From contig NZ_FNTF01000002.1 of NCBI RefSeq assembly GCF_900105495.1, positions 4,146,501-4,210,500 on the forward strand: DNA of 64,000 nt. Reading direction: 5' to 3'. The DNA comes from Pseudomonas frederiksbergensis. Lineage in GTDB: Bacteria > Pseudomonadota > Gammaproteobacteria > Pseudomonadales > Pseudomonadaceae. The first letter of the stretch is position 1. Every line of letters begins with the position of its first letter. The notes beneath the pieces are model-generated. The model was not told the DNA's origin. It did not search any database and saw only the letters and a program-made list of their open reading frames with translations. A program made the position numbers and the translations under genes. This document shows, one piece after another, positions 14,833 through 33,658 of this stretch.

Positions 14833-15771
14833 TCAAAGATCGAACCGGTCCACAGCACGACGTCGCTCGTTATCATCGCGCACGTCGTAGTTGGCCGTGG
14901 TCTGGATGTTGCTGTGATGGGCGAGTTTCTGGGCGATCGACAAGTCGTACTCCTCAATCACTCGGGTAATGAACGAACGTCGGAAATCATGCGGCATGAT
15001 TTTCACCCCGACCTGCGCGCCCCGCTGGCGGGCGATGTAATAGATCGCATGTTTGGTGATGCGCTCGCGGGTGATGTGGCTGCCGCGGCGGATGCGATTG
15101 AACAGAAATGAATCGTCCGTTTCGCCCTCCTTCAATAGCGAGCGCCGCAGTTCCAACCAGTCATTGAGTTTGGCGAACGCCCAGGCCGGTGCGTACTTGA
15201 TCAGTTGCTTGTTGCCCTTGGCGGTCACACGGAGGCTGCGCTCGGCGAAATCGACCTGCTTCAGGTCCAGGTTTACCGATTCCGATTTGCGCATGCCCGA
15301 GCCATACAAAATCCCGATGATCGCCGCATCCCTCAACCCTTGTGGCCGTGGATCGGCAGCACAGACCGCCATCAGTTCCTGGATCAGCGTGCGCCTGAGG
15401 TTGCGCCCCTGGGATAATCGCGTGCCGGCAATTCCCTTGACCGAGCGCATTTTCAGCAAGTGCTCCTGACTGATCAGGCTCATGCGCCACGCCTCGTTCA
15501 TCACCCCGCGCACCGCATTGACGTACAGCGAAGAGGTGTTGGGCGCATAGCCGTCGGTGCGCAAGGTGGCGACCAGCGCGATGACATCTTCCGGTTGCAG
15601 GTTGTGCCAGGGAATCTCCTCGACGTTCATGTCTTCGAAGCCCAACCGGTCAGCGGCGTCCTGCAACACATAACGCATGGTCAGCTGGCTGGAGGGCGCC
15701 AGACGTGCCAGGTACAGGGTCAGCGGGTTGGTCTTTGAGGGAATGGAATCGGTTGCGGGTAAGTCAATCAA
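14833..15771 (-). CDS. Solitary tyrosine recombinase (XerC/D-like site-specific integrase)
   Basis: A 312-residue phage-integrase-family protein. Residues 13-100 form a SAM-like core-binding domain; the catalytic domain follows with the full active-site set: R161 (GSGMRKSE), K185 (TAKGNKQ), H261 and R264 (MPHDFRRSF), H285 (LAHHSNIQ) and the nucleophile Y295 (TTANYD). It therefore looks active. It is not the housekeeping XerC or XerD by context (no dsbC, dapF or xerA-type neighbours), and there is no phage or integron cassette array beside it. An inverted repeat lies just upstream of its start (15783-15868), a possible target. The likely job, such as inversion, integration of a small element or dimer resolution, cannot be decided from sequence. 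Confidence 0.88.
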   Translation of the reverse strand: MIDLPATDSIPSKTNPLTLYLARLAPSSQLTMRYVLQDAADRLGFEDMNVEEIPWHNLQPEDVIALVATLRTDGYAPNTSSLYVNAVRGVMNEAWRMSLISQEHLLKMRSVKGIAGTRLSQGRNLRRTLIQELMAVCAADPRPQGLRDAAIIGILYGSGMRKSESVNLDLKQVDFAERSLRVTAKGNKQLIKYAPAWAFAKLNDWLELRRSLLKEGETDDSFLFNRIRRGSHITRERITKHAIYYIARQRGAQVGVKIMPHDFRRSFITRVIEEYDLSIAQKLAHHSNIQTTANYDVRDDNERRRAVDRFDL

Positions 15772-17781: not shown

Positions 17782-18747
17782 TCAGAGCGGCGCCTTCAAA
17801 TCGACCCCCAACGCCTGGGCAAACGCCTTGACCAGCGGACTGCGCACAGTGTTGTGACGAAGGATCAGATTGAACGGGGTGCTGATGTTGATCAGGTCCG
17901 GGCGCACAGCCCGGAACTGTCCCTGCGCCACCATCGACGCGGCGTAATGCTGTGGCAGAAAACCCACGAAACGCCCGGTCTTGATCAACAATGCCACCGC
18001 TTCGACCTGGCTGGCCGAGGCGGAAAAGCTGTCGTAGTGGGCAAAATTCAGTTTGTCGCGATGAATCGCATAGCGGTGGTTGATGCACTCGTAATCCTTG
18101 AGCACATGACTGCCGATTTCTGCGTCCGGCACCGTGAATAACGGATGACCGACCGCGCAATAAACTTCAGAGCGTTCTTCATAAAGCGGGTAGTAATCAA
18201 ACTCTTCGCGCTTCTGATAAACCGGCACGATCCCCGCCACTAACCGTCCCTCTACAACACCTCTTTCCACCTCATCCAGTTGTGAGGCTTGAAGTTGAAA
18301 TCTTACTTTCGGCGATGTTTCATTAATTGTTCTAAGCGCAGCAACTAACGGCGAATTAGCATCGGAAATCGTATTATCAATAACCCCCACGCCAAGGTCA
18401 CCGATCAGTTCATTCTGAGCTGAACTAAGGCGGTCGCGAAAGTTGTCGACCGAGGCAAATAAATCAATGGACGCCTGATACACCAGGCGACCCTCTTCGG
18501 TCAGGTGAAAACCCTCGCGACCGCGGGTGCACAGGCGCATGCCGATGCGGATCTCCAGGTCGGAGATCTGTTTGCTGATGGCTGCCAGACCCACATTCAG
18601 CTCATTCTGGGCAGCACTGAAGCCGCCGGCTTCGACCACTGCCTTGAATACTTTGAGCAGTTTGAAATCCAGGCCGCTGAGGGTCAGCGGTGCCCGATGA
18701 CCCGTTTTCAGCGGCGGGTTTCCGGAATTGGAAAGTGGGGTTTCCAT
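17782..18747 (-). CDS. LysR family transcriptional regulator
   Basis: A 321-residue LysR-type protein. The winged helix-turn-helix is at about residues 28-85 (LDFKLLKVFKAVVEAGGFSA then LNVGLAAISKQISDLEIRIG), preceded by an unusual 25-residue polar leader. The effector domain follows (about 115-310). It is divergent from the ArgH-like gene with a 307-base gap that contains two inverted repeats, the classic layout of a LysR regulator controlling a catabolic operon. I infer that it activates 19055-26491 in response to a pathway compound; the inducer is unknown. Confidence 0.88.
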   Translation of the reverse strand: METPLSNSGNPPLKTGHRAPLTLSGLDFKLLKVFKAVVEAGGFSAAQNELNVGLAAISKQISDLEIRIGMRLCTRGREGFHLTEEGRLVYQASIDLFASVDNFRDRLSSAQNELIGDLGVGVIDNTISDANSPLVAALRTINETSPKVRFQLQASQLDEVERGVVEGRLVAGIVPVYQKREEFDYYPLYEERSEVYCAVGHPLFTVPDAEIGSHVLKDYECINHRYAIHRDKLNFAHYDSFSASASQVEAVALLIKTGRFVGFLPQHYAASMVAQGQFRAVRPDLINISTPFNLILRHNTVRSPLVKAFAQALGVDLKAPL

Positions 18748-18865
18748 AATGCCTATTTACCTCTGGCGCCCTATTCAACAACCTGTGTCCAACAACAAAA
18801 ATAGTGCTGGTAAATAATAATGACCACAGAAAACCAGGCTTGGCAACCGCTAATAAATCCCGCAC

Positions 18866-18885
18866 ATCAGTGCCAACTCACTGAT
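18866..18885. promoter_or_regulatory. Inverted repeat, candidate LysR operator 1
   Basis: ATCAGT (18866-18871) and ACTGAT (18880-18885) form a perfect 6-base inverted repeat with an 8-base spacer, midway between the divergent LysR and ArgH-like genes. LysR regulators typically bind such dyads. Assignment is by position and symmetry only. Confidence 0.45.
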
Positions 18886-18900
18886 TTCGAACTATTAAAA

Positions 18901-18918
18901 GCTGACACTTCGATCAGC
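18901..18918. promoter_or_regulatory. Inverted repeat, candidate LysR operator 2
   Basis: GCTGA (18901-18905) and TCAGC (18914-18918) form a second dyad with an 8-base spacer, 34 bases (about three helical turns) from the first and sharing the CTGA/TCAG core. The two could be the recognition and activation half of one LysR-controlled promoter. Confidence 0.4.
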
Positions 18919-19054
18919 TCTCGTAACGATGCAACTGCGCTTTCCCCCTGCCCTTGAATAATGTTTAGGCCAAACCACGCCCAATTGATTTGCGGCGAGT
19001 GTTTCAGGCCCGGCACACCGATTTCAGTTCGCTTTACCGACGAGGAAAACAACA

Positions 19055-20482
19055 ATGTCTCAAACCACCGACCGTCTCTGGGGTGCCCGCTTCAAAAGCG
19101 GTCCGTCCGAAGCCCTGGCGGCCTTGTCCCGTTGCCCCGAGCGCTACTTTCGCCTCACCCCGTACGACCTCGCCGGTTCCAAGGCGCATGCCCGTGAATT
19201 GCAGCGCGCCGGGCTGCTGAGCGAACAAGAAACCCAGACCATGCTCGACGCCCTGGAGCGCATCGGTGATGACTTCCGCGACGGCAGCATCGCGCCGACC
19301 CTGGATGACGAAGACGTCCACACCTTCATCGAACGCCTGCTGACCGAACGCCTCGGCGCGCTGGGCGGCAAGCTGCGCGCCGGCCGTTCACGCAACGACC
19401 AGACTGCCAACGACCTGCGCCTGTTCCTGCGTGATCACGTCCGCACCCTGGCCGTTGAAGTCCTGGCCCTGCAACAAGCCTTGGTGGATCAGGCCGAGCA
19501 GCACATCGAAAGCATCTGCCCAGGGTTCACTCACCTGCAGCAAGCCCAGCCGATCGTGTTCGCTCACCACTTGCTGGCCCACGCCCAATCGATGTTGCGT
19601 GACGTGCAACGCCTGGTGGACTGGGACGTACGCACTTCGCTGTCGCCACTCGGCGCGGCGGCCATGGCCGGTTCTGCCATCGCTCGTCTGCCGCAGCAGT
19701 CGGCCAAGGAAATGGGCTACAGCGGCGTGTGTGAAAACTCCATCGATGCCGTAGCCAGCCGCGATCACGTTGCCGAGTTCCTGTTCATTGCCAGCATGCT
19801 CGGGATCAACATCTCGCGCCTCGCCGAAGAGTTCTGCCTGTGGTCGTCGCGGCAATTTCGCTGGGTCGTGCTGGACGATGCCTACGCCACCGGCAGCTCG
19901 ATCATGCCGCAGAAGAAGAACCCGGACATCGCTGAATTGGCGCGGGGCAAGGCGGGTCGTTTGATTGGCAACCTGACCGGTCTGCTCTCTACGCTGAAAT
20001 CCCTGCCGCTGTCGTACAACCGCGACTTGAGCGAAGACAAAAACGGTGTGCTCGACAGCGTCGACACCCTGTTGCTGGTGCTGCCCGCCATGGCCGGGAT
20101 GGTCGCAACCATGAAGGTCAACGTCGAAGAACTGCGGCGTCAGGCGCCACTGGGTTTCACTCTCGCCACCGAAGTCGCCGACTGGCTGGCCATGCGCGGC
20201 GTGCCGTTCAAGGAAGCCCACGAAATCACCGGTGCGCTGGTCCAGGCCTGTGAGAAACACGACATCGAATTGTGGGAAGCCTCCCCGGCGCTGTTGGCCG
20301 AAATTGACCCGCGCCTGACCGCGGAAGTGCGCGAGAGCCTGACCCTCGAAGCCGCCATCGCCGCCCGCAGTGGCTGGGGCGGCACCGCACCGCAACAGGT
20401 GCGCGAGCAGATTGGTCGACTGAAAACTGCCCTGGCTGCGCAGCAGCAATGGACCGAGAACTATCAGGGCTTTCGCCTTTAA
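19055..20482 (+). CDS. ArgH-superfamily lyase (argininosuccinate lyase-like), probably catabolic
   Basis: A 475-residue member of the aspartase/fumarase superfamily closest in motifs to argininosuccinate lyase: GGKLRAGRSRNDQTANDLRL (104-123), the acid/base histidine in THLQQAQP (H160), ENSIDAVASRD and the catalytic-serine loop GSSIMPQKKNPD (280-291). All superfamily active-site residues are present. These enzymes cleave a C-N bond to give fumarate and an amine. The DDEDVHTFIERL and RAGRSRNDQ style is more like non-proteobacterial ArgH, and the neighbours (LysR, importer, NodB-like hydrolases, MmgE/PrpD) are catabolic, so this is probably not the biosynthetic argH. Possible substrates include argininosuccinate or N-substituted aspartates such as iminodisuccinate or EDDS. 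GAGGAAA precedes the ATG. Confidence 0.8.
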   Translation: MSQTTDRLWGARFKSGPSEALAALSRCPERYFRLTPYDLAGSKAHARELQRAGLLSEQETQTMLDALERIGDDFRDGSIAPTLDDEDVHTFIERLLTERLGALGGKLRAGRSRNDQTANDLRLFLRDHVRTLAVEVLALQQALVDQAEQHIESICPGFTHLQQAQPIVFAHHLLAHAQSMLRDVQRLVDWDVRTSLSPLGAAAMAGSAIARLPQQSAKEMGYSGVCENSIDAVASRDHVAEFLFIASMLGINISRLAEEFCLWSSRQFRWVVLDDAYATGSSIMPQKKNPDIAELARGKAGRLIGNLTGLLSTLKSLPLSYNRDLSEDKNGVLDSVDTLLLVLPAMAGMVATMKVNVEELRRQAPLGFTLATEVADWLAMRGVPFKEAHEITGALVQACEKHDIELWEASPALLAEIDPRLTAEVRESLTLEAAIAARSGWGGTAPQQVREQIGRLKTALAAQQQWTENYQGFRL

Positions 20483-20496
20483 GTCAGAGCACAAAA

Positions 20497-20590
20497 CCTG
20501 TGGGAGCGGGCTTGCCCGCGATGAGGCCATCACATCCACATTTTTGTTGACTGACAGTCCGCTATCGCGGGCAAGCCCGCTCCCACAGGG
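20497..20590. repeat. REP/BIME inverted pair
   Basis: Two inverted GGGAGCGGGCTTGCCCGCGA cores with CCTGT and ACAGGG flanks enclose a short spacer containing TTGACTGACAG. The pair sits between the lyase gene and the ABC permease gene, inside the presumed operon, and is nearly identical to the pair at 4675. Confidence 0.85.
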
Positions 20591-20629
20591 ACTGTGCTGA
20601 CCTGAAATATCAGAGTACGGAGAAACAAC

Positions 20630-21508
20630 ATGAGCCAGACTCAGGCAGAACGACTCCAGTCGGAGCGCAAACTGGCGGAAAACCAGTTCGATATCACCCA
20701 GTACCACCATGTGCCACGGCGTTATTACGGGCGGATTTTCTTCGCCACCGTGATCGTCATTGCGATTATCGGCCTGGTACGAGCCTTCGCCGAAGGCAAG
20801 ATCGAGTGGTCCTACATCGGCCAGTTCCTCACGTCCCAGGCGATCATGTGGGGCTTGCTCAACACCATCGTCATGGCGGTGCTGGCCATGGCACTGGGCA
20901 TCGTTTTCGGGGTGATCACCGCGATCATGCGCATGTCGGCCAACCCGATCCTGCGCTACGTGGCGGTGACCTACACCTGGCTGTTCCGCGGTACGCCGCT
21001 GATCCTGCAACTGCTGTTGTGGTTCAACCTGGCGCTGATCTTCCCCACCATCGGCATCCCCGGTCTGTTCGAAATGGACACCGTGAGCCTGATGACCCCG
21101 TTCGCGGCCGCCCTCCTCGGCTTGAGCATCAACCAGGGCGCCTACACCGCCGAAGTGGTGCGAGCCGGCCTGCTGTCGGTGGACACCGGCCAGTACGAAG
21201 CCGCCAAGTCGATCGGCATGCCGCGCCTGCAAGCGCTGCGCCGGATCATCCTGCCGCAGGCCATGCGGGTGATCATTCCGCCGGTCGGTAACGAGTTCAT
21301 CGGCATGGTGAAGATGACCTCGCTGGCGAGCGTCATCCAGTACTCGGAACTGCTCTACAACGCCCAGAACATCTACTACGCCAATGCCCGGGTCATGGAG
21401 CTGCTGATCGTCGCCGGTATCTGGTACCTGGCCACGGTCACCGTCCTGTCCTTCGGTCAAAGCCGTCTGGAGCGTCGTTTCGCTCGCGGCGCCGGCAAGC
21501 GTTCTTGA
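20630..21508 (+). CDS. Amino acid ABC transporter permease (HisM/GltK type)
   Basis: A 292-residue permease of the polar amino acid family with about five to six membrane helices. A 40-residue polar N-terminal extension precedes helix 1 ([14 protein letters not shown]). The family signature [14 protein letters not shown] is at about 120-133, and the EAA loop [40 protein letters not shown] at about 180-220. It is the only permease of the cluster, so the transporter is probably a homodimer. ACGGAG precedes the ATG. It is followed ten bases later by the ATPase gene. It should import the lyase-pathway substrate. Confidence 0.88.
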
Positions 21509-21518
21509 GGAGCCCCAC

Positions 21519-22283
21519 ATGAGAAGCATCGTCAAGGCCGTGAGCCTGAACAAGTACTACGACCATTTCCACGCGCTCAAGGACATCAACATCGAAGTCG
21601 AGCAAGGCGAAGTGCTGTGCATCATCGGCCCGTCCGGCTCCGGCAAAAGCACCCTGCTGCGCTGCGTGAATCAGCTGGAAAAAATCGACAAGGGCGGTCT
21701 TTGGGTCGATGGCGAACTGGTGGGTTACCGGATCGTCGGCAACAAGCTGCACGAACTCAACGAGTCGCAGATCGCCCGTCAACGCCTGGCCACCGGCATG
21801 GTGTTCCAGCGCTTCAACCTGTTCCCGCACATGACTGTGCTGCAAAACATCATCGAAGGGCCATGCCAGGTGCTCAAGCGTTCGCCCAAGGAGGCGCACG
21901 AGGAAGCCTTGGAATTGCTCGCTCGCGTCGGCCTGGCCGACAAGCGCAACAGCTACCCGATCGAACTCTCGGGTGGTCAGCAACAACGCGTCGCCATTGC
22001 CCGTGCACTGGCCATGCGGCCCAAGCTGATGCTGTTCGATGAGCCCACTTCGGCACTCGACCCGGAACTGGTCGGTGAGGTGCTGTCGGTGATGCGTGAC
22101 CTCGCGCAAACCGGCATGACCATGATCGTCGTCACCCATGAACTGGGCTTCGCTCGCGAAGTGTCCAACCGCATGGTGTTCATGGACGGCGGGCAGATCG
22201 TGGAGGCTGGAAGCCCCGAAGAAATACTAATAAGTCCGCAAAACCCGCGCACCCAAAGCTTCATTTCTGCCGTTCGAACCTAA
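21519..22283 (+). CDS. Amino acid ABC transporter ATP-binding protein
   Basis: A 254-residue GlnQ/HisP-type ATPase: Walker [16 protein letters not shown] (about 40-54), Q-loop [16 protein letters not shown], signature [18 protein letters not shown], Walker [20 protein letters not shown], switch [14 protein letters not shown]. It lies between the permease and binding-protein genes in one orientation with short spacings, forming a complete importer with them. GGAGC stands upstream of the ATG at 21519. Confidence 0.9.
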
Positions 22284-22322
22284 GCGTCCTTTGGCGCTCA
22301 CAACACTCATAAGAGAACGACC

Positions 22323-23147
22323 ATGAAGAACATTGTTATCCCAGCAGTACTCGCAGGCGTTATGGCTTCCGGCTTCACCTGGGCCGCCGAACTACCGGCC
22401 AGCATCAAGGAAAAAGGCGAGGTCGTGGTCGCGATCATGCCGAACTACCCGCCGATGGACTTCAAGGACCCGGCCACCAACACCCTCACCGGTCTTGACT
22501 ACGACCTGGGCAATGCCTTGGCCGAACGTCTGGGCGTGAAGATCAAATGGCAGGAAACCGGCTTCGAGCAAATGATCAATGCGCTGACCACCGACCGTGT
22601 GGACATGGTGCTGTCGGGCATGACCGACACCGCCGAACGTCAGGCCAGCGTGACCTTCGTCGACTACTTCACCAGTGGTCCGCAGTTCTACACCTTGCAG
22701 AAAAACAAGGATTTCAACGAGATCATCGACCTGTGCGGCAAAAAAGTCGGCACCAGCCGCCGCACCACCTTCCCGGCTGAAATCGCCGAGTGGAGCAAGG
22801 CCAATTGCGAAGCCGCCGGCAAGCCTGCGATCAACGTGATCGGCACCGAAGGCTCCGCCGATGCCCGCGCGCAATTGCGTCAGAGCCGTATCGACGCGGC
22901 CATGCAGGGCAGCGAGACCCTGTCCTACCTGAAGACTCAGGAAAAGGACATGTACAAAACCGTGGGCCTGCCGATCTCCAAGCAGTTCACCGGGCTGGGC
23001 GTGAGCAAGAAAAAGCCTGAGCTGAGCGAGGCGGTGAAGGTCGCGTTGCAGAGCATGGTGGATGACGGCAGCTACCAGGCGATCCTGAAAAAGTGGGACC
23101 TGGAACTGGGGGCGATCAAGACTGTGACCATTAACGCCGGGAAATAA
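22323..23147 (+). CDS. Amino acid ABC transporter periplasmic binding protein
   Basis: A 274-residue family 3 (SBP_bac_3) protein with a signal peptide (MKNIVIPAVLAGVMASGFTW, cleavage near AAELPAS). Family motifs include VAIMPNYPPMDFKDP, LTGLDYDLGNALAERLGV, DMVLSGMTDTAERQA (the conserved arginine that binds an alpha-carboxylate) and LCGKKVGT with a second Cys (ANCEAA), probably a disulfide. The ligand is therefore likely an alpha-amino-acid-type compound. It completes the importer with the two genes before it; a REP pair follows, then the hydrolase genes. Confidence 0.88.
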   Translation: MKNIVIPAVLAGVMASGFTWAAELPASIKEKGEVVVAIMPNYPPMDFKDPATNTLTGLDYDLGNALAERLGVKIKWQETGFEQMINALTTDRVDMVLSGMTDTAERQASVTFVDYFTSGPQFYTLQKNKDFNEIIDLCGKKVGTSRRTTFPAEIAEWSKANCEAAGKPAINVIGTEGSADARAQLRQSRIDAAMQGSETLSYLKTQEKDMYKTVGLPISKQFTGLGVSKKKPELSEAVKVALQSMVDDGSYQAILKKWDLELGAIKTVTINAGK

Positions 23148-23165
23148 GGGATCGGCGTGATGCCT

Positions 23166-23260
23166 TTGTGGGAGCGAGCCTGCTCGCGATAGCGGTCTGT
23201 CAGGCGAAAGGGATGTTGAATGTGCCAGCCCAATCGCGAGCCGGCTCGTTCCCACAGGGT
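23166..23260. repeat. REP/BIME inverted pair (diverged right arm)
   Basis: The left arm TGTGGGAGCGAGCCTGCTCG and the right arm (AATCGCGAGCCGGCTCGTTC then CCACAGGGT) form an inverted pair; the right arm differs from the consensus by a few bases (CCGGCTCGTT). It lies between the binding-protein gene and the first NodB-like hydrolase gene. Confidence 0.75.
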
Positions 23261-23293
23261 TCGGTGTTTATTTATGAATAGTTGGAGCACCAC

Positions 23294-24142
23294 ATGTCCT
23301 CCTTGCCACAACCCAACTGGCCCGACCAGCACAAAGCCTGCCTCGCCCTGGCCTTCGACCTCGACGGTCCGACCGGCGATGCCATGCTCAACGGCTCGAT
23401 CTGGCGCAAGCCCGAGTACTTCGGTTTCGGCGGTTACGGCCCTTACCGCGCCTTGCCCCGCATCCTCGATGTGCTCGACGCGTACCAAATCCCGACGACG
23501 TTTTTCGTCCCGGCCTGGGTCGTGGAGAACTGGCCGAAACAGTGCCAGGCGATTGTCGAGCGCGGGCATGAAGTGGCCTACCACGGCTACAAACACGAAT
23601 CCTTTTACGCCCTGACGCTGGAACAGCAAAAGGACGTGATGAACAAATCCCGCGAGGTGTTCTGGAAACACCTGAACATCCGCGCCGAAGGGTTTCGCAC
23701 CCCGTCCGGTGACTGGCGGGCCGAAACCCCGGCGATGCTGGTGGAGGCTGGCGTGACCTACTCCAGCAGCATGCGCGGCGATGACCGGCCATACCTGGTG
23801 AAAGTACCGGGGCACGACACGCCGCTGGTGGAAATCCCCGGCCGCTGGGAAATGGACGACTACGCCTCCCTCGCCTACACCCGCGCGCCGGACTTTCCTT
23901 CCGGGCTGGACCGCACCGCCAGCTACGCACTGACCCTCGATAACTGGTGCCGCGAATACGACGGCGCCATGAACGAAGGACTGTGCCTGACCACCCTGTT
24001 CCACCCCAAGATCACCGGCAAACCGGGACGCATCCTGCTGCTGGAAAAACTCTTCGAACACATGCGCCAGCGCGATGACGTGTGGTTCGCCACCTGCCGC
24101 GATGTCGCCCAGTGGTGGCTGAAGGAGCATCACCATGACTGA
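23294..24142 (+). CDS. Polysaccharide deacetylase (NodB)-family hydrolase, PuuE/imidase-like
   Basis: A 282-residue cytoplasmic protein (no signal peptide) of the NodB-fold family. Metal-site candidates are D22 and D24 (AFDLDGPTGD) and H97/H101 (VAYHGYKHESF). Further motifs are GFRTPSGDWRAETPAML and the late LTTLFHPKITGKPGR. Cytoplasmic members of this branch include PuuE allantoinase and cyclic-imide hydrolases, which open C-N amide rings instead of deacetylating sugars; the location in an amino-acid-type uptake operon fits that better than glycan work. The ATG at 23294 has TTGGAG ahead. The next gene, a diverged homologue, starts inside this one (8-base overlap), suggesting a two-subunit enzyme. 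Confidence 0.8.
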   Translation: MSSLPQPNWPDQHKACLALAFDLDGPTGDAMLNGSIWRKPEYFGFGGYGPYRALPRILDVLDAYQIPTTFFVPAWVVENWPKQCQAIVERGHEVAYHGYKHESFYALTLEQQKDVMNKSREVFWKHLNIRAEGFRTPSGDWRAETPAMLVEAGVTYSSSMRGDDRPYLVKVPGHDTPLVEIPGRWEMDDYASLAYTRAPDFPSGLDRTASYALTLDNWCREYDGAMNEGLCLTTLFHPKITGKPGRILLLEKLFEHMRQRDDVWFATCRDVAQWWLKEHHHD

Positions 24143-25022
24143 TTCCACTGTCTGGCCCAAAGGCTACCGCTGCGCCGTGGTACTGACCGTCGATTACAAC
24201 GACATCCACGGCATCCTCACCCAGGCCCCGGAGGTCGCCGGGCGCGACAAGACGCTGTCGGTCTGGCGCTATGGCACCCAACGCGGCGTCGACCGTTTGC
24301 TCGGTTTATTCGAAGAACTGGGGGTTTCCAGCAGCTGGTTTGTGCCCGGGATCGTCGCCGAGGAAAACCCCGGGCACATTCGGGCAATCCAGGCCGGTGG
24401 ACATGAGATCGCCTGCGCCGGGTATCGCCACCAGCACTACGACACCCTGAGCCTCAACGAACAAAGCGCCGAGATTGCCAAAGGCTGCGAGGCGTTGACC
24501 ACGCTGACTGGCCAGCGTCCAACAGGCTTTCGCATCCCGGCCGGCAACGGTGCACCGGGCTTCATCGAAGCGTTGAAGGATCACGGCATTCGCTGGTCCT
24601 CATCGTGGCGTGGCGATGATTTGCCATTCGCTCATCCGACGGCGTCCGACGTCATCGAGTTGCCATTGCACTACGAACTGGAAGACGAACCCTACTTCGC
24701 CTTCAACCTGAGCCCGGCCGTGCCACCGGCGCAATCGCGGATCGCCTCTTACAGCCATACCCTGGGCAACCTGCAACTGGATTTTGCCGGGTTTCACCGA
24801 TTCGGCCTGTGTTATGTGCTGCGACTGCACCCGGAAATCATTGCGACACCCGGGCGGATTGGCGTGTTGCGCGAGTTGCTGGAGGGGATTCAACAGCACG
24901 ACGACGTGTGGATTGCCACAGGCGCCGACGTTGCTCAATGGTGGGCCGAATCGGCGCGACAGGTGACCGAGGACCATCCGGCGGCCGTGTATGAGCGGCA
25001 TTATCGGGATTACCTCGTATGA
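24135..25022 (+). CDS. Second NodB-family protein with altered metal-site residues
   Basis: A 295-residue homologue of the preceding protein, alignable along its length (FVPGIVAEENPGHIRAIQAG, GFRIPAGNGAPGFIEALKDHG, LRLHPEIIATPGRIG, DDVWIATGADVAQWW). Compared with it, the second aspartate is Asn (D20-Y-N22) and the first histidine of the H-x3-H pair is Ala (A95-G-Y-R-H99), so a normal metal site seems lost. It may be a regulatory or structural partner of the first protein, or a metal-independent hydrolase as reported for PuuE. AAGGAG lies upstream within the preceding gene; the stop overlaps the MmgE/PrpD start. The pairing of an intact and an altered NodB domain in overlapping genes is unusual. 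Confidence 0.78.
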   Translation: MTDSTVWPKGYRCAVVLTVDYNDIHGILTQAPEVAGRDKTLSVWRYGTQRGVDRLLGLFEELGVSSSWFVPGIVAEENPGHIRAIQAGGHEIACAGYRHQHYDTLSLNEQSAEIAKGCEALTTLTGQRPTGFRIPAGNGAPGFIEALKDHGIRWSSSWRGDDLPFAHPTASDVIELPLHYELEDEPYFAFNLSPAVPPAQSRIASYSHTLGNLQLDFAGFHRFGLCYVLRLHPEIIATPGRIGVLRELLEGIQQHDDVWIATGADVAQWWAESARQVTEDHPAAVYERHYRDYLV

Positions 25023-26491
25023 GTGAGCGGATGCAGCGATTGGCGCAGTTCTGCGTCGACAGCCGATTCGAAGACTTGCCGCCCGCACTGGTGACCCAAG
25101 CCAAGCGACACATACTCGACACCTTCGGCGCGACCCTGGCCGGGGCTGGCAGTGATGTCGCGAAGCAGGCACGGCAGGTCTTCGACGGTGAGGTCGGGAA
25201 CACGCTGATCTGGGGCACCGATCAACGCACTGGCGCGGCCCAGGCCGCCCTGCTCAATGGTGTCGCCGCCCATGCCCTGGAACTGGACGACACCGGTGGT
25301 TGCGACCACTCCGGCGCGGTGGTGCTGCCGGCAGTCATGGCGGCGGTGTCGATGTCTGGACAATCGGTGAATGGCCGGGAGCTGATCACCGCTGTGGTAA
25401 TCGGCTACGAAATCGGCCGCCGGGTGCTCGAAGCCTGTGGCAGCTATTCAGCCCACAACGGCGCCGGCTGGCACTCCACCGCCACCTGCGGCGTGTTCGG
25501 TGCGGCGGCGGCCAGTGCGCGAATTCTTGGACTGGATACCGCGCAAACCGTCTCGGCGCTGGGCATTGCCGGCAGTTTCAGTGGAGGGTTGTGGGCGTTT
25601 ATCCACGACGGTTCGCAAAGTAAAAAACTTCACAGCGGTCGTGCCGCCGAGGGTGGATTGCTGGCGGCGCGATTTGCCCAACGAGGCATCACCGGGCCGA
25701 CGAAGTTGTTCGATGATGTCTGGGGCGGGTTTCTGAAAACCCTGGCAGGCGAGACTGCACAACCTGACGCGTTGGATGCCGATCTGGGCGTCGTATGGAA
25801 ACTTGCTCGCTGTTCGATTAAACCCTACGCCGCATGTCGCGGAACGCATTCCGCCATCGATGCGCTGGGGCTGTTGCTGGATCAGCTGCAGGTCAGCGCA
25901 GATCAAGTCGAAGATGTTCAGGTGTCGTTGTGCGGGTTTCTTCAGGGCATGTGCGGCGGGCGCGACGTCGGTACGCTGGCGGCGGCGCAGATGAGCCTGC
26001 CGTATGCCCTCGCAGCCCGGCTGGTGCAGGGGCATTGCCGGCTGGAGGCGTATGACGATGAACAACGGGGCGATCCTCGGATTGCTCACTGGATGTCGCG
26101 CATCCGTCTTGAAGTGGATCCGCAACTGTCAGAGGATGGCGAGCCCATCGTCAGCGTGCGGACCGTGGACGGTCGGCAGGCGAGCCTGTGTGTCGACCCG
26201 CCATTGGGTGCGCCGGGCAATCCGTTGAGTGATGCGGCGCTGAAGGATAAGTTTTTCAGCCTGGCGTTGCGGGTGATGCCGCGGGGGCAAGCGGCAGAAC
26301 TGCTTGAGCAGTTGTGGCGGGTTGAAGAGCTGGAATCTGTCGAGGCACTGATCGTTCCCACGCTCCGCGTGGGAATGCAGCCCGGGACGCTCCGCGTCCC
26401 AAAAGCGGACGCAGAGCGTCCGGTAAGGCATTCCCACGCAGACGGTTCGACGCCTCGACGTGGGTACGATCACTCAGAGAACATTAAATAA
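25019..26491 (+). CDS. MmgE/PrpD family protein (epimerase/dehydratase-like) with repeat-encoded C-terminus
   Basis: A 490-residue MmgE/PrpD-fold protein: HALELDDTGGCDHSGAVVLPA (about 83-103), HNGAGWHSTATCGVFGAAAA, IHDGSQSKKLHSGRAAEGGLLAARFA (about 199-224), KPYAACRGTHSAIDA and a C-terminal lid domain. Known members are 2-methylcitrate dehydratase, cis-aconitate decarboxylase and iminodisuccinate epimerase. Next to an ArgH-type lyase, the epimerase type is the most attractive analogy. The start overlaps the upstream stop (ATGA). The last ~45 residues (from about 444) are translated from a dispersed palindromic repeat at 26348-26472, so the native C-terminus and stop were probably replaced by repeat insertion. 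Confidence 0.82.
   Translation: MSERMQRLAQFCVDSRFEDLPPALVTQAKRHILDTFGATLAGAGSDVAKQARQVFDGEVGNTLIWGTDQRTGAAQAALLNGVAAHALELDDTGGCDHSGAVVLPAVMAAVSMSGQSVNGRELITAVVIGYEIGRRVLEACGSYSAHNGAGWHSTATCGVFGAAAASARILGLDTAQTVSALGIAGSFSGGLWAFIHDGSQSKKLHSGRAAEGGLLAARFAQRGITGPTKLFDDVWGGFLKTLAGETAQPDALDADLGVVWKLARCSIKPYAACRGTHSAIDALGLLLDQLQVSADQVEDVQVSLCGFLQGMCGGRDVGTLAAAQMSLPYALAARLVQGHCRLEAYDDEQRGDPRIAHWMSRIRLEVDPQLSEDGEPIVSVRTVDGRQASLCVDPPLGAPGNPLSDAALKDKFFSLALRVMPRGQAAELLEQLWRVEELESVEALIVPTLRVGMQPGTLRVPKADAERPVRHSHADGSTPRRGYDHSENIK
26348..26472. repeat. Palindromic repeat (GTTCCCACGCTCCGCGTGGGAA family) inside a gene end
   Basis: Nested hairpins CTGATCGTTCCCACGCTCCG, then CGGGACGCTCCGCGTCCC and GGACGCAGAGCGTCC, ending ATTCCCACGCAGAC...GGTACGATCA. 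It is closely similar to the copy at 49750-49866. It begins inside the MmgE/PrpD reading frame and supplies its final codons and the upstream part of the MFS leader. Confidence 0.8.
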
Positions 26492-28686: not shown

Positions 28687-29721
28687 TCAGGCTGCTGACT
28701 GTTGCCGCACCGGCACCGCCAGACTCACCGCGCGCACCGATGACCCGACACTCAATCCCAAACTCTTCGCAGTTGCCGCATCGACAATCAACGTCCCGGC
28801 AGCCACCCGCGCCGGTGCCGCGATAATCCGGCACTCGGCAAATTGACGGTTATGAATCAGGTAAGTCGCCGCCTGCTCCCCCGGTGTGCCAATGCTCAGT
28901 TGCAGCACCTGGCTGTCGCGCACCGCACGGATATCCCCGGTGGCGCATTCGATCAGCGGGCCGCCGTCGAAGATGTCGATGTAGTCGCGGTGCTCGAATC
29001 CTTCAGCCTTGAGCATCCCCAACGCCGGTTCGGTATTGGGGTGAACCCGCCCGATGACGGTTCGCGCCGCTTCAGGCAACAGGCAGGTGGGCAGCGGAAA
29101 CTTGGGCATCAGCTCGGCGATGAAGGTTTTGTTGCCCAGCCCTGTGAGGTAGTCGGCATCGGCAAAGTCCATCTTGAAGAAGTGCCGACCCAGGCCTTCC
29201 CAGAACGGTGAAATGCCCTCTTCGTCCGAGTAGCCACGCATCTCGGCGATGACTTTCTCACCGAAGTGCTGACGAAATTCCGCCAGAAACAGGAACCGCG
29301 CCTTGGACAGCAAGCGCCCGTTCAGACCGCTGCGGTGATCGGCATGCAGAAACAGTGAACACAGTTCTGAGTGACCGGTCATGTCGTTACCGAGGAACAA
29401 CGTCGGCAGTTGCTGATTGATCCCGAGGTTTTTCGAGGCCGCGACAAACAGGCCCAGTCGGTAGTTGTACCAGGGCTCGCGCAGGCCGACGGCCCCGGCC
29501 AGTGCGCAGATGCCGATGGCTTCATGCTGGTCATTCTCAAGCACAAACAGGTAATCGGCATCGGCGCGTTCGGCTTCGCCGGCGAAGGTCTTCGCTGCCC
29601 ACTCCAGACGCTGGCGCAGACGCCCCGCGTCGGCAGGCAAGGTGGTCAAGCCGGTTCCGGCGCTATGGGCCAGGGCTAACAGTGCCGACAGGTCTGCCGG
29701 TGTGGCTGGACGAACGATCAT
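28687..29721 (-). CDS. astA: Arginine N-succinyltransferase (AstA/AruF-like)
   Basis: A 344-residue protein of the AstA family: MIVRPATPADLSALLALA at the N-terminus, GLTTLPAD, EPWYNYRLGLFVAASKNLGI, SELCSLFLHADHRSGLNGRLLSK and the C-terminal IDIFDGGPLIEC. The enzyme transfers succinate from succinyl-CoA to the alpha-amino group of arginine (or ornithine), the first step of the AST pathway. It is isolated from the other ast/aru genes and instead is coupled by an ATGA overlap to a CtlX-type hydrolase, which suggests a special role in arginine/citrulline or related guanidino-compound use. The start at 29721 is fixed by this overlap. Confidence 0.88.
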   Translation of the reverse strand: MIVRPATPADLSALLALAHSAGTGLTTLPADAGRLRQRLEWAAKTFAGEAERADADYLFVLENDQHEAIGICALAGAVGLREPWYNYRLGLFVAASKNLGINQQLPTLFLGNDMTGHSELCSLFLHADHRSGLNGRLLSKARFLFLAEFRQHFGEKVIAEMRGYSDEEGISPFWEGLGRHFFKMDFADADYLTGLGNKTFIAELMPKFPLPTCLLPEAARTVIGRVHPNTEPALGMLKAEGFEHRDYIDIFDGGPLIECATGDIRAVRDSQVLQLSIGTPGEQAATYLIHNRQFAECRIIAAPARVAAGTLIVDAATAKSLGLSVGSSVRAVSLAVPVRQQSAA

Positions 29722-30656
29722 TGCATTTGCTCCTGGGTAGCCCGGTGTTTGGACAGAAAGACTTCGGCCAACATGCAGCGCGCGCTGCCGCCACCGATGC
29801 GTTCGATGGTGTCGATGTTCACGGGGAGCGGCGTGGCGTGGGTTTCGATCAAACGACGTTGGGCGGCATCCAGCGATTGCCAGGCCGTGCGCGACATCAC
29901 CAGCAAGGGTTCGCCCGCAGCGTTGTGGACTTCCAGCATGTTGCCGGCGAAAGATTCCAGTTGTTCCCAGCTCAGGGCAATCACCTGTTTGCCGCTGTCT
30001 TCCAGGCGTTTACGCAGGGCCAGGCGTTCGGCCGGGTGCGTGACTGACGTCAGGCAGGCCACGGCCAGGCGTGTGCCGACACTCATCATCACGTTGGTGT
30101 GGTAAATCGCGACGCCCTGACGGTCCACCGCGTTGAAGGCGCACAGTTCGTAACCCAAATGACTGACCACCTGGTCCAGAGCGCGGGCATGGGTGCGGGT
30201 GGAGTAACCGGCGTAGCAAATTCGCTGCTGACGATCCAGCACCATGCTACCGGTGCCTTCGAGGAACACTTCCTGCTGTTCGAGGCTGGAAAGGTCCAGC
30301 AACTGTTCCACCCGGTACTCGTCCCGCAGCCAGTCGAGCACGCCTTTGTCCCGTTCCAAACGCCGGTTGTGGCCCTGCATCGGGTACAGCACCAAGGTGC
30401 CGTCGGGATGGCTGCTCCACCAATTGTTAGGGAAGATCGAATCCGGGGTATGCGGCGCTTCGCGGTCGTTGTGCACCCTGACCTCGACACCGTGCTGACG
30501 CAGCGCTGCAACGTAGCCATCGAACTCTTGCAACGCCTTTTGCTGCACGTCTTCGCTGACGGCGGCCGGCTGCTGGAAACGGTTGTTCGCCGCCGTGTCC
30601 TGATTGAAGGAGAAACGTGTCGGGCGAATCATCAAAACGGTATTGGTGGTTTGCAT
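29718..30656 (-). CDS. ctlX: Arginine deiminase/amidinotransferase-family hydrolase, CtlX-like
   Basis: About 312 residues of the guanidino-group-modifying superfamily: MIRPTRFSFN, PDSIFPNNWWSSHPDGTLVLYPM (acidic/Asn-rich substrate motif), EGTGSMVLD, the catalytic His region VAIYHTNVMMSVG and the catalytic Cys in IGGGSARCMLAEVF. This order matches CtlX proteins, reported as citrulline-utilisation hydrolases, and other small arginine deiminase relatives. The ATG at 30656 places the conserved N-terminus correctly; the frame stays open 138 bases upstream but with unrelated sequence. It is coupled to astA. The next gene upstream (Lrp) is separated by a terminator, so this pair has its own promoter in 30657-30794. 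Confidence 0.83.
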   Translation of the reverse strand: MQTTNTVLMIRPTRFSFNQDTAANNRFQQPAAVSEDVQQKALQEFDGYVAALRQHGVEVRVHNDREAPHTPDSIFPNNWWSSHPDGTLVLYPMQGHNRRLERDKGVLDWLRDEYRVEQLLDLSSLEQQEVFLEGTGSMVLDRQQRICYAGYSTRTHARALDQVVSHLGYELCAFNAVDRQGVAIYHTNVMMSVGTRLAVACLTSVTHPAERLALRKRLEDSGKQVIALSWEQLESFAGNMLEVHNAAGEPLLVMSRTAWQSLDAAQRRLIETHATPLPVNIDTIERIGGGSARCMLAEVFLSKHRATQEQMQ

Positions 30657-30794
30657 GGGCACAGATTCAATGAGGGCTGAGAGGTACTCATTGTCTGTTT
30701 CGCAGGCTGGAAAACCCGGTTGATAAGTGTCTGCGGCGTGATGGAAACGGCTGAAAAACGTGTGTGGCCCAGCCGATTCGGCGGAGCTGAACAC

Positions 30795-30828
30795 AAAAAA
30801 AATCGCAGCCCGAAGCTGCGATTTTTTG
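30795..30828 (-). terminator. Rho-independent terminator after the Lrp gene
   Basis: AATCGCAGC and GCTGCGATT form a perfect 9-base stem with a five-base loop, flanked by A runs on the left and T runs on the right, so it can work on both strands. On the minus strand it follows the Lrp-type gene by about a dozen bases and ends with a long T tract. Confidence 0.85.
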
Positions 30829-30839
30829 TTCTGCCAAAC

Positions 30840-31319
30840 CTATTCCATCGTGGTCTTGACCATCGCCAGTTCCGGATGGCTGACCAGTTTGTCGATGTGC
30901 AATTCCGGGTCATCGAACCAGACTTCGGTCAGCACCCGATAGTGCTCCATGTCCCGGCAACGCATGCGCAAGCTGTAGTCGAACGCGCCGCTGATCAACT
31001 GACATTCCATCACCTGCGGGCAGGCGCGGACCTTGGCTTCGAACGCCTTCTGCGCCGCGCGCCCGCTCTGGTTCGACAACGCCACCAACACCAGCAACGA
31101 CAAGCCTGGCGTCAGTTTCTTTTCATCGAGAATCGCGCCATACCCACGAATGACCCCGAGCTGTTCGAGTTTGCGCACCCGTTCCAGGCACGGTCTGGGC
31201 GTGAGATGGACGCGCTCGGAAAGCTTTTGATAAGTGATGCGCCCTTCGTGGCGCAACACTTCGATGATTGCCTGATCGATACGATCAAGCACGATCGACA
31301 GATCGCGGATATCCGCCAT
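30840..31319 (-). CDS. Lrp/AsnC family transcriptional regulator
   Basis: A 159-residue Lrp-type protein. The N-terminal helix-turn-helix is at about 10-60 (LDRIDQAIIEVLRHEGRITY then LSERVHLTPRPCLERVRKLE), followed by the RAM ligand domain (about 70-155: GLSLLVLVALSNQ, ACPQVMECQLISGAFDYSLR). It starts 12 bases after the ABC ATPase gene on the same strand and is followed by a terminator, so it is the last gene of the transporter operon. It probably senses an amino acid (arginine, ornithine or citrulline by context) and controls this operon and the adjacent ctlX-astA pair. Confidence 0.88.
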   Translation of the reverse strand: MADIRDLSIVLDRIDQAIIEVLRHEGRITYQKLSERVHLTPRPCLERVRKLEQLGVIRGYGAILDEKKLTPGLSLLVLVALSNQSGRAAQKAFEAKVRACPQVMECQLISGAFDYSLRMRCRDMEHYRVLTEVWFDDPELHIDKLVSHPELAMVKTTME

Positions 31320-31331
31320 GTACGTCTTGCC

Positions 31332-32093
31332 TCACTTCAAACGACCCGATAGGAATTGCTGCAAACGTTCACTTTTTGGCTGGTCGAGGATCGTAGCATC
31401 ACCCTGCTCCTCGACCTTTCCCTGATGCAAAAACAACACCTGGCTGGAAACCTGACGGGCAAACCCCATTTCGTGGGTCACCATCAACATGGTACGGCCT
31501 TCCTCGGCCAGGGCCTGAATGACCTTCAGCACCTCACCCACCAATTCCGGATCGAGTGCCGAGGTCGGCTCGTCGAACAACAGAATCTCCGGTTCCACCG
31601 CCAGGGCACGTGCGATCGCCACCCGTTGTTGCTGGCCACCGGACAGAAACGCCGGGTATTGATCGGCCACTCGTTGCGCCAGACCGACCTTGTCCAGGTA
31701 AGCCCGCGCACTTTCTTCGGCGGCCTTGCGGCTGATCCCCAACACCCGGCACGGCGCCAGCACGATGTTCTCCAGCACCGTCAGATGGCTCCACAAATTG
31801 AAATGCTGGAACACCATTGCCAGGCGCGTGCGCAGACGCTGCAATTGCGCCGGATGAGCGACGCGCATGCCACCGGCACCCGGGCGCGTGATCACGCGCT
31901 CGCCGTCCAGTTCAATGGCGCCTTCGTCCGCGCGTTCCAGAAAGTTGATGCAGCGCAGCATCGTGCTTTTACCCGAACCGCTGGCGCCGATCATGCTCAC
32001 CACATCGCCTGCCCGTGCATTCAACGAGACGCCCTTGAGCACTTCGTTGTCACCAAAACGTTTATACAGATTTTCAACCGTGAGTTTGTACAT
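31332..32093 (-). CDS. aotP: Basic amino acid ABC transporter ATP-binding protein (AotP/HisP-like)
   Basis: A 253-residue ATPase: Walker A GASGSGKSTMLRCIN (about 34-48), Q-loop VFQHFNLWSHLTVLEN, signature [18 protein letters not shown], Walker [20 protein letters not shown], switch VTHEMGFARQVSS. The WSHLTVLEN variant and the insert ITRPGAGGMRVAHPAQL are seen in histidine/arginine/ornithine transporters. The ATG at 32093 begins the conserved MYKLTVENLYKRFG. The gene is 56 bases after the permease gene and directly before lrp. Confidence 0.88.
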   Translation of the reverse strand: MYKLTVENLYKRFGDNEVLKGVSLNARAGDVVSMIGASGSGKSTMLRCINFLERADEGAIELDGERVITRPGAGGMRVAHPAQLQRLRTRLAMVFQHFNLWSHLTVLENIVLAPCRVLGISRKAAEESARAYLDKVGLAQRVADQYPAFLSGGQQQRVAIARALAVEPEILLFDEPTSALDPELVGEVLKVIQALAEEGRTMLMVTHEMGFARQVSSQVLFLHQGKVEEQGDATILDQPKSERLQQFLSGRLK

Positions 32094-32149
32094 GTCAGCA
32101 CTCCTGGAGCGGCAGGCCTGGCGGCACCGCTCTGGACAGAAAATGGGAT

Positions 32150-32860
32150 TTAGTGAGTCGGGCCGAGAAAACCCAGCCAACGCTTCTCTGCGAACCGGAA
32201 GGCGCCGACCAGGCCGAACGACAGCGCGAGGTACAGCAGCCCGGCAATGCCGAAGGCCTGGAACGTCATGAAGGTCGCGGCATTGGCGTCCCTGGCGACT
32301 TTGAGGATGTCTGGAATGGTGGCGGTGAACGCCACTGAGGTCGCGTGCAACATCAGGATCACTTCGTTGCTGTAATACGGCAATGCCCGGCGCAACGCCG
32401 AAGGCAGAATCAGCCGCAGGTACAGGCGCCAACCGCTCAAGCCATACGCGTGGGCGGCCTCGATTTCACCGTAGGGAATGCTGCGAATTGCCCCAGCGAA
32501 GATTTCCACGGTGTAGGCGCAGGTGTTGAGCGTGAACGCGAGCAAGGTGCAATTCATCGCATCGCGGAAAAATGCTTCGAGCAACGGTTGCGAGCGCACC
32601 ACCGCGATGCCGTAGATCCCGCTGTAGCAAATCAGCAACTGGATATACAGCGGCGTGCCGCGAAACACATAAGTGAACAGCTGAACCGGCCAGCGCAGCA
32701 GGCCCCAGCGCGAGGTTCGCATGATCGCCAATGGCAGCGACAGGAAGAACCCCATCACAATGCTCGCCACCAGCAGCCACAAGGTCATGGCCAACCCGGT
32801 GAGGCTGTAGCCGTCGCTGAACAGAAAGGGTTTCCAGTATTCGGCAATCAACTCGATCAT
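32150..32860 (-). CDS. aotM: Basic amino acid ABC transporter permease (AotM/HisM-like)
   Basis: A 236-residue permease with about five membrane helices, the signature VFRGTPLYIQLLICYSGIYG (about 63-82) and the EAA loop GAIRSIPYGEIEAAHAYGLSGWRLYLRLILPSALR (about 125-159). The long periplasmic loop VRSQPLLEAFFRDAMNC is typical for HisM/AotM. Its start overlaps the stop of the other permease gene (ATGA), so the two membrane subunits are made together as a heterodimer. Confidence 0.88.
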   Translation of the reverse strand: MIELIAEYWKPFLFSDGYSLTGLAMTLWLLVASIVMGFFLSLPLAIMRTSRWGLLRWPVQLFTYVFRGTPLYIQLLICYSGIYGIAVVRSQPLLEAFFRDAMNCTLLAFTLNTCAYTVEIFAGAIRSIPYGEIEAAHAYGLSGWRLYLRLILPSALRRALPYYSNEVILMLHATSVAFTATIPDILKVARDANAATFMTFQAFGIAGLLYLALSFGLVGAFRFAEKRWLGFLGPTH

Positions 32861-33582
32861 CGTGCCATCCCCCGCACACCCTGGTTGTAGCGCCGTTCCA
32901 ACACGCGCAAAACGTAGTTCGAAGCGCTGGTGATCAGCAAATACAACGCGGCTGCCAGCAGCAGGAAATCGAGCATGTTGAAGGTGCTTTTACCCGCTTC
33001 CTGCGCGACTTTGACCAGGTCCGACAACCCGATGATCGACACCAGCGCCGTGGCCTTGAGCAGTACCAGCCAGTTATTGCCCAGGCTTGGCAAGGCAAAA
33101 CGCATCATTTGCGGGAACACCACGAAGCGGAATCGCTGCCAGCGGTTCAGGCCAAAACACGCGGCGGCTTCCTGCTGGCCGCGCGGTACACTCAGAATCG
33201 CCCCGCGAAAGGTCTCGGTGAAATACGCGCCGTAGATAAAACCAAGGGTGATGACCCCGGCCACGAACGGATCGATTTCCATGTAGGGCCAGTCCATGGC
33301 TTCGGTCAGGCTGCTCAGCCAGCCTTGCAGGCTGTAGAAAATCAGCAGCATCAGCACCAGGTCCGGCACCCCGCGAATCAGCGTCGTGTAGAAGGTTGCC
33401 GGCAGGTTCAACAGCTTCAGCGGCGACAGTTTCGCTGCCGCGCCGAGCAGGCCCAGCGCCATGCTCACCAGCAGCGAGAGCGCTGACAATTTCAGCGTGA
33501 CCCAGGTGCCATGCAGCAACAATGGGCCATAGCCTTGCAGGGCCGAGAGATCGACCCCGATCAGATTCAGGAAGGAGTTCAC
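32857..33582 (-). CDS. aotQ: Basic amino acid ABC transporter permease (AotQ/HisQ-like)
   Basis: About 241 residues: five membrane helices, the signature LIRGVPDLVLMLLIFYSLQG (about 68-87) and the EAA loop YFTETFRGAILSVPRGQQEAAACFGLNRWQRF. RGVPDLV is the HisQ/AotQ version of the motif. No ATG is present near the first helix. I prefer the GTG at 33582 (NSFLNLIGVDL follows), preceded by AGGTGA; an open frame extends to 33615. Convention of the family (LxGYGPxLLxGTWVTLKLS) agrees with a start 20-25 residues before that motif. Confidence 0.85.
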   Translation of the reverse strand: MNSFLNLIGVDLSALQGYGPLLLHGTWVTLKLSALSLLVSMALGLLGAAAKLSPLKLLNLPATFYTTLIRGVPDLVLMLLIFYSLQGWLSSLTEAMDWPYMEIDPFVAGVITLGFIYGAYFTETFRGAILSVPRGQQEAAACFGLNRWQRFRFVVFPQMMRFALPSLGNNWLVLLKATALVSIIGLSDLVKVAQEAGKSTFNMLDFLLLAAALYLLITSASNYVLRVLERRYNQGVRGMAR

Positions 33583-33658
33583 GTCAGTCACCTGTCTTGA
33601 GGCGCCCGCGCGCAAGCGCTGCGCCTGTCACCAGGACGCAGCCTTTGGGGCGCGGGGA

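Follow-up and report, generated by a model that had tools for sequence, protein, structure and literature searches.

A cassette of seven co-directional genes with a divergent LysR-type regulator gene lies at 17782..26491 of a 64,000-nucleotide stretch of Pseudomonas frederiksbergensis DNA (assembly GCF_900105495.1, contig NZ_FNTF01000002.1, positions 4,146,501 to 4,210,500), the whole of which is referred to as the window. The cassette is widespread, catabolic-looking and built of known protein families. Its most likely task is to import a nitrogen-rich compound that is linked to succinate and perhaps related to arginine, and to split it into fumarate and an amine. No paper describing such a pathway was found in the open-access literature (most subscription journals lie outside this coverage), in agreement with an initial annotation, made from the sequence alone, which knew of no described pathway with exactly this gene set. 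The observations comprise the gene set with its order and conservation, a distinct lyase lineage, conserved active-site and ligand-site residues, and the neighbouring genes.

Gene content and order

The source genome consists of two contigs (6.39 Mb), and its nearest relatives by the cassette locus are Pseudomonas frederiksbergensis and other Pseudomonas. The gene list of the initial annotation (LysR, ArgH-type lyase, one-permease importer, two NodB-fold proteins, MmgE/PrpD protein) agrees in coordinates and families with all eight genes:

17782..18747, minus strand: LysR-type regulator, divergent (PF00126, PF03466)
18748..19054, no strand: putative control region with two dyads kept in Pseudomonas relatives
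19055..20482, plus strand: ArgH-family C-N lyase of the cassette type, with Y at position 31 (TIGR00838, 529 bits)
20630..21508, plus strand: amino-acid ATP-binding cassette (ABC) transporter permease, single (PF00528, TIGR01726)
21519..22283, plus strand: amino-acid ABC transporter ATPase, GlnQ/EhuA-like (PF00005)
22323..23147, plus strand: periplasmic solute-binding protein, family 3, with signatures SRRT and QG(S/G)ET (PF00497)
23282..24142, plus strand: NodB1, a NodB-fold hydrolase with intact D/H/H metal motif (PF01522, Polysacc_deac_1)
24135..25022, plus strand: NodB2, a NodB-fold protein with degenerate metal motif (PF01522, Polysacc_deac_1)
25019..26491, plus strand: MmgE/PrpD-family protein with the fold of iminodisuccinate (IDS) epimerase and cis-aconitate decarboxylase (PF03972, PF19305)

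The overlaps said to link hydrolase, hydrolase and MmgE/PrpD (ATGA or 8 bases) measure 8 bases between NodB1 and NodB2 (24135-24142) and 4 bases between NodB2 and the MmgE/PrpD gene (25019-25022). The listed start of NodB1 is a TTG, with an in-frame ATG 12 bases further on.

Conservation and distribution

Relatives were collected by scanning a genome set, in which each species is represented once, for the MmgE/PrpD protein, and the best 80 of 191 were fetched, so that most loci are from Pseudomonas and Enterobacterales; the alphaproteobacterial (alpha) and betaproteobacterial (beta) loci were hand-picked, mainly from plasmid records. Alignments comprise rows of at least 75% of the query length, and the lyase of locus L150 is absent from the lyase alignment. 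All seven genes lie on one strand and in the same order at 73 of the 80 loci. Of the remaining loci, six are truncated at a contig end, and in L097 the ATPase match is split. Seventy of the 73 full cassettes also have a divergent LysR orthologue. The cassette is a real unit, conserved far beyond chance, and the neighbours, whose conservation the initial annotation had proposed to check, are anything but poorly kept together.

The cassette recurs in Pseudomonas, Enterobacterales and Burkholderiaceae and, rearranged, in alphaproteobacteria. The gene order of the gammaproteobacterial (gamma) type is also found on Burkholderia plasmids and in Caballeronia (L012); on a Paraburkholderia plasmid (L016) the cassette is partly duplicated and rearranged. 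Alpha type 1, present in Sinorhizobium, Agrobacterium, Gemmobacter and Rhizobium, has the order LysR, lyase, permease, ATPase, binding protein, MmgE/PrpD and one NodB; in Microvirga (L015), of the same type, the NodB gene lies apart from the other cassette genes. Alpha type 2 (L146, L148, and L145, which is cut by a contig end) has the order permease, ATPase, binding protein, NodB1, NodB2, MmgE/PrpD, lyase and LysR. Every complete copy examined has an importer, NodB, MmgE/PrpD and an ArgH-family lyase.

The cassette is accessory. NodB1 is present in 32 of 149 Pseudomonas genomes, and the MmgE/PrpD protein of the window in 3 of 194 genomes of the order and 10 of 397 of the phylum (own genome counted in all three), as well as in 4 of 79 genomes of family f53. 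A query with the Agrobacterium MmgE/PrpD protein detects the cassette in 5 of 247 family f70 genomes. A close-match search of 50,697 phage records returned no close copy.

The ArgH-family lyase

The cassette lyase scores 529.1 bits on the ArgH model TIGR00838 (cut-off 279.5). The genome encodes a second ArgH (C2:748649, 643.9 bits), to which the cassette lyase is 43% identical. A quick maximum-likelihood tree of 66 rows (midpoint root, long-branch warnings, support only from the Shimodaira-Hasegawa-like approximate likelihood ratio test, SH-aLRT) includes 33 hand-chosen cassette lyases, 30 proteobacterial ArgH and three long-branched rows from the Protein Data Bank (PDB), none of them a lyase of ethylenediaminedisuccinate (EDDS). 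The ArgH rows are L004 and 29 of 30 kept loci, the best-scoring of 60 genomes, L107 having been dropped as a copy of L004. Thirty cassette lyases form one group (SH-aLRT 99), which joins the ArgH of PDB entry 6iem (SH-aLRT 100) and stands apart from all 30 proteobacterial ArgH rows. The three type-2 lyases (L145, L146, L148) nest within the proteobacterial ArgH rows on a long branch. It seems that an ArgH-type lyase joined the importer, NodB and MmgE/PrpD genes twice, independently in type 2, and this double recruitment suggests that elimination from a succinyl group is required by the pathway.

The columns of N114, D115, S281 and K287 are identical between cassette lyases and ArgH rows, as expected from the ArgH-type active-site motifs named in the initial annotation; N114, D115, G280, S281, P285, K287 and D324 are invariant in the 91 main-type cassette lyases. 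We take these to correspond to the catalytic serine loop GSSxMPQKKN and nearby active-site columns of ArgH. Position 31, presumably that of D33 of delta-crystallin near the substrate, is Y in 82 and F in 9 of the 91 main-type lyases, and D in all 30 ArgH and all three type-2 lyases.

Two identities are rejected. The lyase is not the biosynthetic ArgH, given the other ArgH in the genome, the 43% identity and the separate tree group; the distinction, for which the initial annotation had called on phylogeny, is thus upheld. Nor is the cassette by sequence an EDDS lyase system: the lyase scores 206 bits to EDDS lyase (6g3d) and 504 bits to ArgH (6iem), and the earlier emphasis on EDDS-type lyases is not supported as it stood.

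The MmgE/PrpD protein and the NodB pair

The best solved relative of the MmgE/PrpD protein is IDS-epimerase (2hp3/2hp0), a distant match of about 138 bits, followed by IRG1 enzymes; the likeness to IDS-epimerase proposed in the initial annotation is thereby supported. Both Pfam domains score over cut-off. H97, H152, K202 and K268, which we take to correspond to the catalytic residues of IRG1, are kept in 90 of 90 rows. The 3' end of the gene contains a palindromic repeat, CCCACGCTCCGCGTGGGAATGC, at window positions 26357-26378, which also occurs at 49759-49780 and 49836-49857 and is of the repetitive extragenic palindrome (REP)-like kind. Many orthologue matches stop at residue 444, so that the last 46 or so residues here seem to be derived from the repeat. 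The open reading frame that follows, of the major facilitator superfamily (MFS), has its listed start at 26460 and so overlaps the end of the MmgE/PrpD gene.

The two NodB proteins differ in their metal sites (the one NodB of the alpha loci L013 and L015 contributes two rows to each set). The Asp/His/His motif of NodB1 (D28, H101, H105) is present in 88 of 88 rows. In NodB2, 86 of 90 rows have A, S or C instead of the first His of motif 2, and 75 of 90 keep the second. With its metal motif degenerate, NodB2 is probably a helper or a metal-independent variant. The initial annotation had described paired hydrolases, a description that does not hold for an equivalent pair, since NodB2 lacks the metal pattern and alpha type 1 possesses one NodB. 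The NodB proteins score 84.1 and 94.1 bits on the model TIGR03212 of PuuE allantoinase, a hydrolase that opens a ring (cut-off 424.6), too far under the cut-off to be called allantoinases. Most named relatives of NodB1 are deacetylases.

Importer and binding protein

In the binding protein, R106, S145, R146, R147, G196 and E198 are invariant in 83 of 83 main-type rows. R106 is presumably the carboxylate-binding Arg of family 3, and G196 stands in what we take to be the position of the Asp that usually binds the alpha-ammonium group; the Asp is thus replaced by Gly in all 83 rows, R106 is kept, and the twin R146/R147 is extra. An ArgT-type binding protein encoded 10 kb downstream in the window has the ordinary residue pattern. 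This combination of residues suggests a ligand that bears several carboxylates and whose amino group is substituted. In L012, L016, L015, L076, L089, L094, L136 and L141, another binding-protein gene, diverged from that of the cassette (about 39-49% identical), is located nearby; its product lacks the twin arginines, and its ligand may be a related compound.

Regulator and putative control region

Two dyads, ATCAGTG-N6-CACTGAT (18866-18885) and AGCTGA-N8-TCAGCT (18900-18919), occur between the LysR and lyase genes, as the initial annotation had reported. Their number is ordinary for one sequence: as many or more 6-base dyads are found in 31 of 300 first-order resamplings, and as many or more 7-base dyads in 50 of 300. 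Among 47 Pseudomonas intergenic stretches, the first dyad is present with 0-2 mismatches in 40 (the best background match in 200 resamplings has at least 4 mismatches), and the second is exact in 33, a figure obtained without a background run. Much of this conservation may reflect close kinship. Gamma, beta (Burkholderia) and alpha cassette loci differ in the LysR subfamily of their regulator.

Neighbouring genes

Downstream neighbours are visible within the fetched stretches, which reach 10-11 kb at most and are shorter for some of the 22 gamma loci outside Pseudomonas. In Pseudomonas loci the cassette is followed by a YdeE-like MFS efflux-type gene and usually by an HPP-family-like gene, neither of which is seen in the other genera compared. 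Two genes past the cassette, the window encodes AstA, CtlX, an Lrp-type regulator and a lysine/arginine/ornithine-type ABC transporter (28687-34438). Where 5.5 kb or more beyond the cassette is available, as it is for 56 Pseudomonas loci, AstA/CtlX genes occur downstream in 17. A gene for an XerC-like tyrosine recombinase is located at 14833-15771 of the window, about 2 kb before the LysR gene.

An arginase-family ureohydrolase gene adjoins the cassette in four of nine alpha type-1 loci (L015, L135, L137, L147); the Agrobacterium protein scores best against 3-guanidinopropionase (285 bits), followed by guanidinobutyrase (259 bits). In 10 of the 22 non-Pseudomonas gamma loci (Erwinia, Pantoea, Winslowiella, a record titled Enterobacter cancerogenus, and G635) an arginase-family gene lies about 1-6.5 kb downstream, accompanied by glycerol-dehydrogenase-like and LysR genes in the five loci inspected; the one such gene scored gives 523 bits to guanidinobutyrase 3nio. 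In Prodigiosinella (L093) a complete astCADBE operon, of the arginine succinyltransferase (AST) pathway, directly follows the cassette. Across genomes, the ureohydrolase is present in 5 of 5 cassette genomes vs 104 of 247 overall in a sample of alpha genomes of family f70 (P 0.0125, post hoc), and a guanidinobutyrase-type gene at least 70% identical in 2 of 4 cassette genomes of family f53 vs 4 of 79 overall (P 0.011, post hoc). Arginine and guanidino genes thus adjoin some cassettes and not most, and the link is suggestive, not proven. In L151 and L153, guanidinobutyrase-type genes lie away from the cassette, near another one-permease importer of amino-acid type, possibly a guanidinobutyrate transporter.

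Expression data are available, in the excerpted text of one paper, for Sinorhizobium meliloti SMb21094-SMb21097, which we infer from gene order and names to be the pSymB cassette L013. In a tolC mutant, SMb21094 (argH2) and the ABC genes SMb21095-SMb21097 are down about 10- to 21-fold by microarray, and argH2 is down 4.5-fold by polymerase chain reaction (PMC2912261). The ntrBC, glnK and nitrate genes fall alongside the cluster, and the authors regard the drop of nitrogen-compound transport genes as probably due to lower NtrC (PMC2912261). In this excerpt the four genes are only listed as co-regulated, and the transporter is annotated as of unknown function (PMC2912261).

Proposed pathway and alternatives

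We infer the substrate, all reaction steps and the direction in which the lyase works from the proteins and their neighbours. A general scheme of import, hydrolysis, isomerisation and fumarate-releasing cleavage is probably correct. More tentatively, at somewhat less than even chances, the substrate would be an argininosuccinate-type guanidino-succinate, possibly cyclic, cleaved to fumarate and arginine or another guanidino acid. The narrowest version, in which ring-closed argininosuccinate or a close cyclic relative feeds a nitrogen-scavenging pathway across Proteobacteria, is doubtful.

In the proposed sequence of events, the ABC importer would take up a polycarboxylate with a substituted amino group, most likely the argininosuccinate-type guanidino-succinate, either open or closed to a 2-iminohydantoin-like lactam. 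Once in the cytoplasm, the ring or an amide bond would be hydrolysed by NodB1 together with its degenerate partner NodB2, the MmgE/PrpD protein would invert the succinyl stereocentre in the manner of IDS-epimerase, and the ArgH-family lyase would eliminate fumarate, freeing arginine or another guanidino acid. The freed product would enter the AST pathway or be broken down by a ureohydrolase of the guanidinobutyrase/guanidinopropionase type. Argininosuccinate closes spontaneously to lactam forms, and such closure would explain the coupling of an ArgH-type lyase with a PuuE-like hydrolase and an IDS-epimerase-like protein. A substrate of the argininosuccinate type would likewise explain the guanidino and arginine genes near some cassette copies.

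Several observations weigh against an argininosuccinate-type substrate. The Y or F at position 31 of the main-type lyases, in place of D, suggests that the leaving group may not be arginine; type-2 lyases retain D31, so that the change does not settle the substrate, and the case for a leaving group without an alpha-amino group is weakened. Type-2 binding proteins, which also have no Asp, carry SRST, with one Arg, instead of SRRT. AstA/CtlX genes are not found within the fetched stretch at 39 of the 56 Pseudomonas loci, and no arginase-family gene within that of the further gamma cassettes L154-L156. Erwiniaceae-type loci with an arginase-family gene are mutually related, and the gene is not adjacent to the cassette. 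L155 matches L093 at 100% and is not independent, which leaves the ast neighbour in one species. In the family f70 sample the ureohydrolase is on the cassette contig in none of the five cassette genomes and is common anyway (104 of 247), and the co-occurrence P values were computed post hoc. Finally, the one open-access literature search aimed at it returned no description of catabolism of ring-closed argininosuccinate.

The main rival is a substrate free of guanidino groups, either an aminopolycarboxylate or an N-substituted aspartate, resembling iminodisuccinate, EDDS or aspergillomarasmine, of which NodB would open a lactam, the MmgE/PrpD protein would epimerise the product and the lyase would release fumarate and an amine. 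IDS-epimerase as best solved relative, the polycarboxylate type of binding site and the loss of D31, which permits a leaving group other than arginine, all suit this substrate, but it is made rather unlikely by the lyase, which scores 206 bits to EDDS lyase and 504 to an ArgH, and by the arginine and guanidino genes adjoining some cassette copies. It was also the route of the initial annotation, which as formulated finds no support in the informative neighbours, since these point to guanidino and arginine chemistry. From that interpretation there remain a conserved unit, a non-biosynthetic lyase and the likeness to IDS-epimerase, without the EDDS-like lyase and the equivalent NodB pair.

Salvage of ordinary argininosuccinate or of N-acylated arginine derivatives, in which NodB1 would remove the acyl group and the MmgE/PrpD protein would catalyse a separate hydration or decarboxylation, would agree with the mostly deacetylase relatives of NodB1, the ArgH type of the lyase and the arginine genes nearby. 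It offers no clear role for a retained MmgE/PrpD protein whose presumed active-site residues are intact in 90 of 90 rows, and is improbable. Breakdown of another arginine-rich product, such as beta-aspartyl-arginine from cyanophycin, would account for the arginine link of some neighbours, and the blocked arginine amino group of the dipeptide fits the binding protein; it is very improbable, given that none of the eight cassette proteins matches a peptidase or cyanophycinase family by profile and that ArgH-type lyases are not known to cleave the amide bond of beta-aspartyl-arginine. ArgH-family lyases are reversible, and the YdeE-like MFS gene could provide an exporter in Pseudomonas for a metal chelator of aminopolycarboxylate type, made by addition of an amine to fumarate. 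This biosynthetic direction is the least probable of all, in view of the dedicated importer within the unit, the restriction of the MFS gene to Pseudomonas in the loci compared, and the co-expression with nitrogen-scavenging genes noted in the excerpt on S. meliloti (PMC2912261).

The tight conservation of seven genes across proteobacterial classes marks a compound that bacteria often meet and that the literature covered here does not name. If the narrowest version of the proposal is true, ring-closed argininosuccinate or a related cyclic guanidino-succinate would be a common nutrient in soil and around plants. Genes annotated argH, including those on symbiotic and other megaplasmids, may not serve arginine biosynthesis. 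Carriers of the cassette include genetically tractable strains, among them Pseudomonas fluorescens FW300-N2E3 (L050) and Sinorhizobium meliloti.

Comparison with known systems

In the iminodisuccinate degradation pathway of Agrobacterium, IDS-epimerase acts together with a C-N lyase. The cassette resembles it in placing an MmgE/PrpD protein beside an ArgH-family lyase, but adds an importer and NodB proteins, and its likeness to the epimerase amounts to only about 138 bits. With ArgH (TIGR00838) the cassette lyase shares a score well over cut-off and the columns of N114, D115, S281 and K287; it differs in forming its own tree group, in Y/F31 for D31, in not being the biosynthetic-type copy of the genome, and in RA for HT at positions 108-109, where RA is also found in the ArgH of 6iem. 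EDDS lyase (6g3d) belongs to the same superfamily but is far more distant, at 206 bits vs 504 for an ArgH. PuuE allantoinase and NodB-fold deacetylases share the fold family PF01522 with the NodB proteins, whose similarity to PuuE is weak.

Canavanine breakdown and guanidinosuccinate were considered as further candidates. For canavanine, the operon is placed beside an editing protein (PMC10018355), and a term search of the main text of that paper returned neither argininosuccinate, deacetylase nor LysR. For guanidinosuccinate, no bacterial pathway appears among the titles and abstract openings listed in the search for it. The S. meliloti cluster SMb21094-SMb21097 is a further related system: as far as its excerpted description goes, it combines argH, two ABC genes and a binding protein in the tag order of the pSymB cassette L013, which differs from the cassette of the window in possessing one NodB instead of two.

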